Shown: positions 8,987-11,529 of the stretch, one piece after another
How positions within the stretch are numbered: the stretch's first letter is position 1
How the letters are laid out: each line of letters opens with the position of its first letter
Assembly (NCBI GenBank): GCA_018434945.1
Contig: JAHDOI010000020.1
Coordinates: forward strand, 1-64,000
Direction of reading: 5' to 3'
Source of the DNA: Selenomonadales bacterium
GTDB taxonomy: Bacteria > Bacillota > Negativicutes > Sporomusales > UBA7701
Length of the DNA: 64,000 bases
Program-made: the position numbers and the translations under genes
Notes under the pieces: generated by a model
Databases searched by the model: none
What the model was told of the DNA's origin: nothing
The model's input: only the letters and a program-made list of their open reading frames with translations

Positions 8987-9974
8987 GGTGACGCTCATCC
9001 CCGGTGACGGAATCGGGCCGGAAATCAGCGCCGCGGTACGGGATATCTTCGCCGCCGCGGGAGCGCCGGTCGTGTGGGAAGTCCACCACGCCGGCCAGGG
9101 CGGCATCGACCGCCACGGCGACCCGCTGCCGGAGGCGACGCTGGCCAGCATCATGGGCAACAGGGTCGCGCTGAAGGGGCCGCTGACCACCCAGGTGGGC
9201 GAAGGATACCGCAGTATCAACGTGACGCTGCGGCAGACGCTGGATTTGTACTGTAACCTTAGGCCGGTGAAGTCGCTGCCCGGGGTGAGGAGCCGCTATG
9301 AGGGGATCGACCTGGTGATTTTCCGCGAGAACACCGAAGATCTTTACGCCGGTGTCGAGCACCGCGTCGGCCGCCACGCGGCCGAGGCGGTCAAGATCAT
9401 CACCAAGGAGGCGTCGGTCCGCATCGCCCAGGCCGCTTTCGACTACGCGGCGCGGCACGGCCGGAAAAGGGTGACCGCCGTCCACAAGGCCAACATCATG
9501 AAGCTAAGTGACGGACTTTTCCTGGCGAGCGCCCGCGAGGTGGCGACGTTCAACCCGGATATCCGCTACGACGAGGTGATCGTGGACAATCTCTGCATGC
9601 AGCTGGTGCTGCGGCCGGAGGAGTACGATATCCTCCTCGCCCCCAACCTGTACGGGGATATAATATCCGATCTGTGCGCGGGCCTGGTGGGCGGCCTGGG
9701 GGTGGTCCCAGGGGCGAACATCGGCGAGGGCGGCGCGGTCTTCGAGGCGGTACACGGCACGGCGCCGGACATCGCGGGCAAGGACGCCGCCAACCCCGCG
9801 GCGCTGCTGCTGTCGGCGGTGATGATGCTGGAATATCTCGGCGAGAGCGGGGCGGCGGCCCGCATCCGCGCTGCCCTGGAGGCGGTGCTGGCCGAAGGCC
9901 GGACGGTGACGCCAGACCTGGGCGGCAGCGCCACGACGACCGAGATGACGGCCGCTATTATAAGGAAGCTGTGA
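8979..9974 (+). CDS. icd: Isocitrate dehydrogenase (isocitrate/isopropylmalate dehydrogenase family)
   Basis: A 331-aa beta-decarboxylating dehydrogenase giving 2-oxoglutarate and CO2. IPGDGIGPEI marks the N-terminus; SINVTLRQTLDLYCNLRPV is the isocitrate-binding segment with Ser and Arg residues; the metal-binding and catalytic region is NLYGDIISDLCAGLVGGLG, followed by HGTAPDIAGKDAANP. The Ser/Asn pattern and the operon with aconitase favour isocitrate over isopropylmalate. The short length resembles NAD-dependent forms, but the cofactor is not settled by inspection. The start ATG lies inside the acn 3' end after GGGAGG. Confidence 0.88.
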   Translation: MHKVTLIPGDGIGPEISAAVRDIFAAAGAPVVWEVHHAGQGGIDRHGDPLPEATLASIMGNRVALKGPLTTQVGEGYRSINVTLRQTLDLYCNLRPVKSLPGVRSRYEGIDLVIFRENTEDLYAGVEHRVGRHAAEAVKIITKEASVRIAQAAFDYAARHGRKRVTAVHKANIMKLSDGLFLASAREVATFNPDIRYDEVIVDNLCMQLVLRPEEYDILLAPNLYGDIISDLCAGLVGGLGVVPGANIGEGGAVFEAVHGTAPDIAGKDAANPAALLLSAVMMLEYLGESGAAARIRAALEAVLAEGRTVTPDLGGSATTTEMTAAIIRKL

Positions 9975-9976
9975 GG

Positions 9977-10008
9977 AAATGCCCTTCCGGTTGCGGAAGG
10001 GCATTTTT
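9977..10008 (+). terminator. Intrinsic terminator after icd
   Basis: A perfect 13-bp stem (9977-9989 with 9994-10006), loop GTTG, and a T-tract. Confidence 0.92.
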
Positions 10009-10051
10009 GCAGGAAGCCGGCCGTCGGGGGCAGAAATAAGGTGATGGGGGG

Positions 10052-10369
10052 ATGGAGCCTGTGAAGATCGTGATCGTTGACGCGGCGCGCGAGTATATCG
10101 CCGCCCGCAGCCCGGAAAGGGCGATAACGCTGGCGGTAGGCGAGCGGCCCGGCGGCGCCTGAGCGGGCGGATGCGCGGGCGGTGCCCGCTACCCGTCCGT
10201 GAGACTGGGCAAGGCCGGAAATGTCCATTGTTATCAACTGACCGAGTGCGACGGGATCGCGGTTTATTACCTCGACAGGCTGCCTGAGCTGTTCGCGTCG
10301 GTGACCGTCAAGACCGAGAAGCTGCTTTTCTGGCCCCGCCTGGTGGCGGAAGGCGAGAGGCGATATTGA
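10052..10369 (+). CDS. Candidate selenoprotein, CC/Se-motif type, with in-frame UGA at 10160-10162
   Basis: One frame runs from ATG 10052 to TGA 10367, interrupted only by TGA at 10160-10162. Reading that codon as selenocysteine gives a 105-aa protein with U37 in the context RPGGA-U-AGGCAGG. The parts on either side look like one folded domain: AREYIAARSPERAITLAVGERPGG before, and YPSVRLGK...DGIAVYYLDRLPEL...KLLFWPRL after. From memory this matches small (seleno)proteins with a CC/Se motif, loosely HesB/IscA-like, found in anaerobic Firmicutes. Their Cys homologues should carry Cys at this position. A GGU-loop hairpin lies 18 nt after the UGA. The gene stands alone between two terminators. 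A conventional caller would see only a 36-aa stub. A nonsense-mutated pseudogene is the alternative. Confidence 0.68.
10163..10190 (+). promoter_or_regulatory. Candidate bacterial SECIS element
   Basis: Just after the UGA, GCGGGC (10175-10180) pairs perfectly with GCCCGC (10184-10189) around a GGU loop. The apical loop starts 18 nt after the UGA. Bacterial SECIS elements typically have a small apical loop with an early G and a GU at 16-37 nt. A competing seven-pair stem, 10162-10168 with 10184-10190, is also possible. Confidence 0.55.
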
Positions 10370-10373
10370 CGAG

Positions 10374-10404
10374 AAACCCTATCGGGTCAAACCGATAGGG
10401 TTTT
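10374..10404. terminator. Bidirectional terminator between the selenoprotein gene and the ABC operon
   Basis: A perfect 12-bp stem (10374-10385 with 10392-10403), loop GTCAAA, with T/A runs usable from both sides. Confidence 0.9.
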
Positions 10405-10408
10405 GTGT

Positions 10409-11529
<1,121 letters not shown>

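Follow-up and report, generated by a model that had tools for sequence, protein, structure and literature searches.

We propose that positions 10052–10369 of a 64,000-nucleotide stretch of DNA from a Selenomonadales bacterium (contig JAHDOI010000020.1; hereafter the window, on the whole of which positions are counted) encode a selenoprotein with selenocysteine (Sec) at an in-frame UGA codon. We put the probability of this reading at about 0.94, a value that covers the selenoprotein assignment and not the function of the protein. The frame begins with ATG, continues through a 36-residue stub to TGA 10160–10162, and extends for 68 sense codons to a TGA stop at 10367–10369. Translation revealed no further stop inside the frame, as the first-pass annotation of the window had described. 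The gene starts at ATG 10052 or GTG 10061, and the position of the latter is the start in most family members. Standard annotation would miss the gene or shorten it at the UGA, which makes it an example of what ordinary gene calling overlooks or truncates. Its wider interest lies in a link to a known fold, a shared selenocysteine insertion sequence (SECIS), and a metal-related context, all of them inferred from sequence.

10052–10369, + strand: candidate selenoprotein gene of 105 amino acids with Sec at residue 37, identified by translation, family match, and alignments
10160–10162, + strand: in-frame UGA, probably read as Sec

Evidence for selenocysteine at the in-frame UGA

Homologs that have Sec or Cys at the UGA position, which the first-pass annotation had suggested searching for, are numerous. 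In the alignments, TGA occupies the same column in about 42 distinct homologs from many genomes of the same bacterial class. Every usable TGA falls in this column, except that of the divergent L022, which is one position off. Cysteine is found at the UGA column in relatives from the same subfamily (RPGG-C-CGGGC in L068, RPGGV-C-SC in L071, RPGGA-C-SC in L088, RPGSC-C-VG in L089, and two HCGCG/NCGCS forms, L060 and L069) and in L018, a Cys paralog from the window's own genome. With Sec written as Cys, the column is the only invariant one among 48 family sequences. L041 (the same gene as L030), the ortholog from a sister species, shares 88% identity with the window protein. It likewise follows icd and retains the TGA, with equal change before and after it.

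The genome possesses the Sec machinery, the presence of which the first-pass annotation had also proposed to verify. The selA (551 bits) and selB (383 bits) genes are located side by side on contig 52, selD (393 bits) is positioned near them, and the score of the tRNA-Sec is 72.6 bits, above the gathering score of 47. SelB and Sec-tRNA would read UGA 10160 as selenocysteine. The selD gene (L050, G000:C52:29651-30568) is a selenoprotein gene itself, with an in-frame TGA in the motif SGGUAAKIG.

The case for a selenoprotein exceeds chance because of the shared TGA column, the replacement of UGA by Cys, and the synonymous codons frozen after the TGA, which are described below. It is built from sequence evidence, which leaves some room for ordinary leaky readthrough or the insertion of another amino acid at the UGA. 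We consider such decoding highly improbable, since Cys replaces UGA in homologs, the Sec machinery of the genome is complete, TGA serves as a stop in other genes of the window, and the UGA is followed by a conserved hairpin. A pseudogene or sequencing error, with the TGA as a true stop or an artifact and decaying codons downstream, might be suspected from the 100-contig assembly and from the decay of some relatives (TAA in L092, site lost in L074), but is less probable still and already refuted by the conservation of the TGA in one column across many genomes and in the evenly diverged sister-species ortholog. In addition, constraint at the level of protein as well as RNA acts on the codons that follow the TGA. 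In L074 (G301:C1:3288651-3288944), the Sec/Cys site is lost and the remainder of the family protein is kept.

Hairpins downstream of the UGA

Two hairpins are located in the coding sequence just downstream of the UGA:

10175–10189, + strand: hairpin GCGGGC-GGU-GCCCGC, with its loop 18 nucleotides after the UGA; its counterpart is found only in long-loop members of the subfamily
10192–10209, + strand: hairpin CCC-GUC-CGUGA-GAC-(U)-GGG over the codons xPSVRLG, with its loop 35 nucleotides after the UGA; proposed SECIS core, from comparison

The first-pass annotation had reported a hairpin with a GGU loop 18 nucleotides downstream of the UGA. This hairpin is present at 10175–10189, but the element with the best comparative support is the second one, at 10192–10209. 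The folding energy is unremarkable for such GC-rich DNA (z-score relative to shuffled sequences of -1.3 for a 53-nucleotide stretch and -2.0 for the GGU hairpin) and therefore proves nothing by itself.

Across members with UGA, the P-S-V-R-L-G residues are mostly encoded by CCR TCC GTG CGA YTG GG, which yields CCC-GUC-CGUGC-GAC-(U)-GGG. All six pairs of the hairpin 10192–10209 form in 40 of 43 UGA members (39 of 42 once a duplicate is removed), as opposed to two of the eight Cys members that were scored; the scoring did not include another six Cys members, whose codons differ. One of the two hairpin-positive Cys members, L068, has kept CGA, a rare codon, and seems to have exchanged Sec for Cys recently. 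If synonymous codons are drawn at random according to the codon usage of the window, the full hairpin arises in 3–16% of cases per gene. The synonymous sites are frozen only at this hairpin, and equally conserved residues elsewhere in the gene use mixed codons. The Arg codon of the hairpin is CGA or AGA in all 26 subfamily members, and CGA accounts for 0.8% of the Arg codons of the window. The codons also exhibit compensatory change, as the proline codon CCA pairs in every case with the leucine codon TTG and never with CTG, and CCG pairs with CTG (5/0/1/23, Fisher p 5e-5, a value inflated by the kinship of the sequences, with about three lineages contributing). When the pairing is slid along the alignment, the paired cells fall from 100% to 56% or less, a control that is supportive and not independent, because only UGA members that fit were selected for it. 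The pattern CCRTCCGTGNGRYNGGG has five matches in the 3.8-Mb genome, which are exactly the five UGA genes of the family, and a reversed control has none; since the pattern was derived largely from these genes, the informative part is the lack of other matches. In L091 (G305:C128:200-490), the conserved Arg CGA of the hairpin has become a second in-frame TGA, and the hairpin still pairs.

Published limits for bacterial SECIS elements concern the loop size, a G in the first two loop positions followed by U, the spacing, and an energy of -7.5 kcal/mol (PMC13188914). The GGU hairpin is within all of these limits. The hairpin 10192–10209 is within those for loop, G, and spacing (35 nucleotides), and its energy of -6.2 kcal/mol is weaker than the limit. 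The predicted minimum-energy fold pairs part of it with sequence adjoining the UGA. An Rfam search of 9900–10500 returned nothing except one chance match.

We take the hairpin 10192–10209 to be the SECIS, perhaps together with the GGU hairpin; the two could stand in tandem in long-loop members such as the window gene. This element would guide Sec insertion. It is unlikely that the GGU hairpin serves as the SECIS by itself and that the second hairpin simply reflects codon preference. Long-loop members do have similar GGU hairpins, but short-loop subfamily members and paralogs lack them and retain the hairpin 10192–10209, which moreover covaries and uses rare codons.

Membership in the CC/Se motif family

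The read-through product matches positions 1–90 of the 91 in the NCBIfam model NF041239, "CC/Se motif family (seleno)protein", with 37.2 bits (E 2e-9) from the longer start and 38.7 bits (E 8e-10) from the shorter one. The link to this family, made in the first-pass annotation, was right. However, the Cys expected before Sec is replaced by Ala in the window protein. A Cys directly before the Cys/Sec position is presumably the defining feature, judging from the family name; Val precedes it in most of the subfamily, and Cys in L033, L065, and L070. The ortholog of the window protein scores 41.2 bits and close subfamily members 46–58 bits, all above the curated cut-off of 40 bits.

The window's genome contains six family copies, five of them with an in-frame TGA, and its genus relatives hold five to ten. 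A class-wide search identified subfamily or family members in 50–53 of 380 genomes. The window protein as a single query retrieved only its ortholog in a search for relatives, had no Pfam match at E up to 1, and the family profile found no relative in a sequence search of the PDB. PMC13188914 includes the CC/Se motif family among the known selenoprotein families and names Moorella thermoacetica as the species of its first prediction. From sequence homology, the window protein appears to be a new member of this known but functionally uncharacterized family.

Predicted fold and possible function

The family is predicted to have the fold of A-type carriers (IscA/SufA/HesB-like). Two AlphaFold models calculated from different alignments, with a predicted local distance difference test score (pLDDT) of 83, are ordered as strand-helix-strand, the Sec loop, three strands, a helix, and two strands. 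For each model, the first ten Foldseek matches are all A-type carriers or resemble them (SufA, IscA, HI1723, DsrR, and others), with a probability of 1.0 at the top of the list, and VIA gave a Z of 9.4 for IscA against the model. Profile comparison by hhalign favors homology: the alignment to HesB-like selenoproteins has a probability of 96 (E 1.5e-9) and places Sec on Sec. The alignment to IscA/SufA has a probability of 87–91 and places Sec on Cys35 of E. coli IscA, with an unrelated ArsR control at 0.2. A profile of the subfamily only gives weaker hhalign signals of 68 and 7. PF01521 weakly matches five of 30 relatives, with a best E of 9e-4. Sec would be located in the loop where IscA has its first metal-ligand Cys, with a Cys four residues later (U-A-G-G-C). 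In a literature search, we found no paper linking the CC/Se family to the A-type-carrier fold; its scope did not extend to two Haft papers about related families.

Relatives of the subfamily adjoin genes for a CadA-type P-type ATPase, ArsR-type regulators, cation efflux proteins, an ArsP-type permease, a DGC-domain protein, and MsrA, as read by eye at about 35 loci without statistical control. One region (L093/L094, G001:C1:497000-523000) has at least four genes of the CC/Se family located within about 23 kb of heavy-metal genes. Two of these family genes come immediately after genes for P-type ATPases, and an ArsR-type regulator is encoded close by.

On the basis of the fold, the Sec/Cys loop, and this context, we slightly favor, as the most likely function, that the selenolate and the neighboring thiol bind or transfer a thiophilic metal, a metalloid, or an iron-sulfur (Fe-S) species. 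The second most likely function, which we consider possible but clearly less probable, is that of a redox enzyme forming a selenenylsulfide (U-x-x-x-C). Most subfamily members have a Cys after Sec, one relative adjoins a peptide methionine sulfoxide reductase, and prokaryotic selenoproteins are mostly regarded as redox proteins (PMC9312934). However, the predicted fold resembles A-type carriers and not thioredoxin, and several Sec members, such as one with PGSVUKGGR, no longer have the downstream Cys.

Several observations weigh against the assignment of the window protein to the family, its predicted fold, and a role in metal handling. Its scores are 1–3 bits under the NF041239 cut-off, and with Ala36 before Sec it is without the Cys that gives the family its name. 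The loop around the UGA is modeled with the lowest confidence, its pLDDT falling below 50 at residues 35–38. The ligands of A-type carriers are three cysteines spaced C-x(63-65)-C-G-C. In the window protein, the first of these positions is Sec, and there is no counterpart of the C-terminal C-G-C ligands of IscA; some paralogs end in Cys-Cys. The heavy-metal neighbors belong to relatives, and the window gene itself adjoins icd and an ABC-2 transporter gene.

PF01521, the model of standard A-type Fe-S carriers, was found in none of the 380 genomes of the window's class, and in nine of 14 control genomes. We speculate that the CC/Se family is an A-type-carrier branch with Sec, handling cargo of Fe-S or thiophilic metals in a class where standard carriers were not found. 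In this view, the family has expanded to 5–10 copies in the genus of the window and is linked to genes for heavy-metal resistance in several relatives, although we hold this broader proposal as doubtful. A simple replacement of standard A-type carriers by CC/Se genes is not supported: with PF01521 absent throughout the class and CC/Se genes in only 53 of its 380 genomes, the two do not trade off in presence and absence.

Organization of the locus

The selenoprotein gene is flanked upstream by an isocitrate dehydrogenase-like gene (icd) and downstream by a convergent ABC-2 transporter gene, both named from reading their translations. Two perfect inverted repeats delimit it:

9977–10006, + strand: perfect inverted repeat followed by a T-run, putative terminator of the upstream isocitrate dehydrogenase-like gene
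10374–10403, + strand: perfect inverted repeat immediately downstream of the second TGA and followed by a T-rich tract, putative terminator of the selenoprotein gene itself

The region 10052–10369 would form a single-gene transcription unit.

Comparison with known systems

The window protein shares with the NF041239 family homology over the full length, small size, and Sec or Cys in the same column, and all 30 relatives first aligned match the model. It differs in that its Cys follows Sec (U-A-G-G-C), whereas CxxU is listed for the family in PMC13188914.

The predicted fold and the place of Sec at Cys35 of E. coli IscA are common to the window protein and the carriers IscA, SufA, and ErpA (PF01521), which however have the C-terminal Cys-Gly-Cys and are only 10–19% identical to it in sequence.

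The HesB-like selenoprotein (TIGR01911 / PF01521, motif UxGP) resembles the window protein in the alignment of Sec on Sec and in the predicted fold. In contrast to it, the window protein has no significant sequence match to PF01521 and carries another motif after Sec. The hairpins also differ, as HesB-like selenoprotein genes from the phylum (L104–L112) share a conserved hairpin of their own downstream of the UGA, with the sequence GACUC-UGGAA-GAGUC or a close variant.
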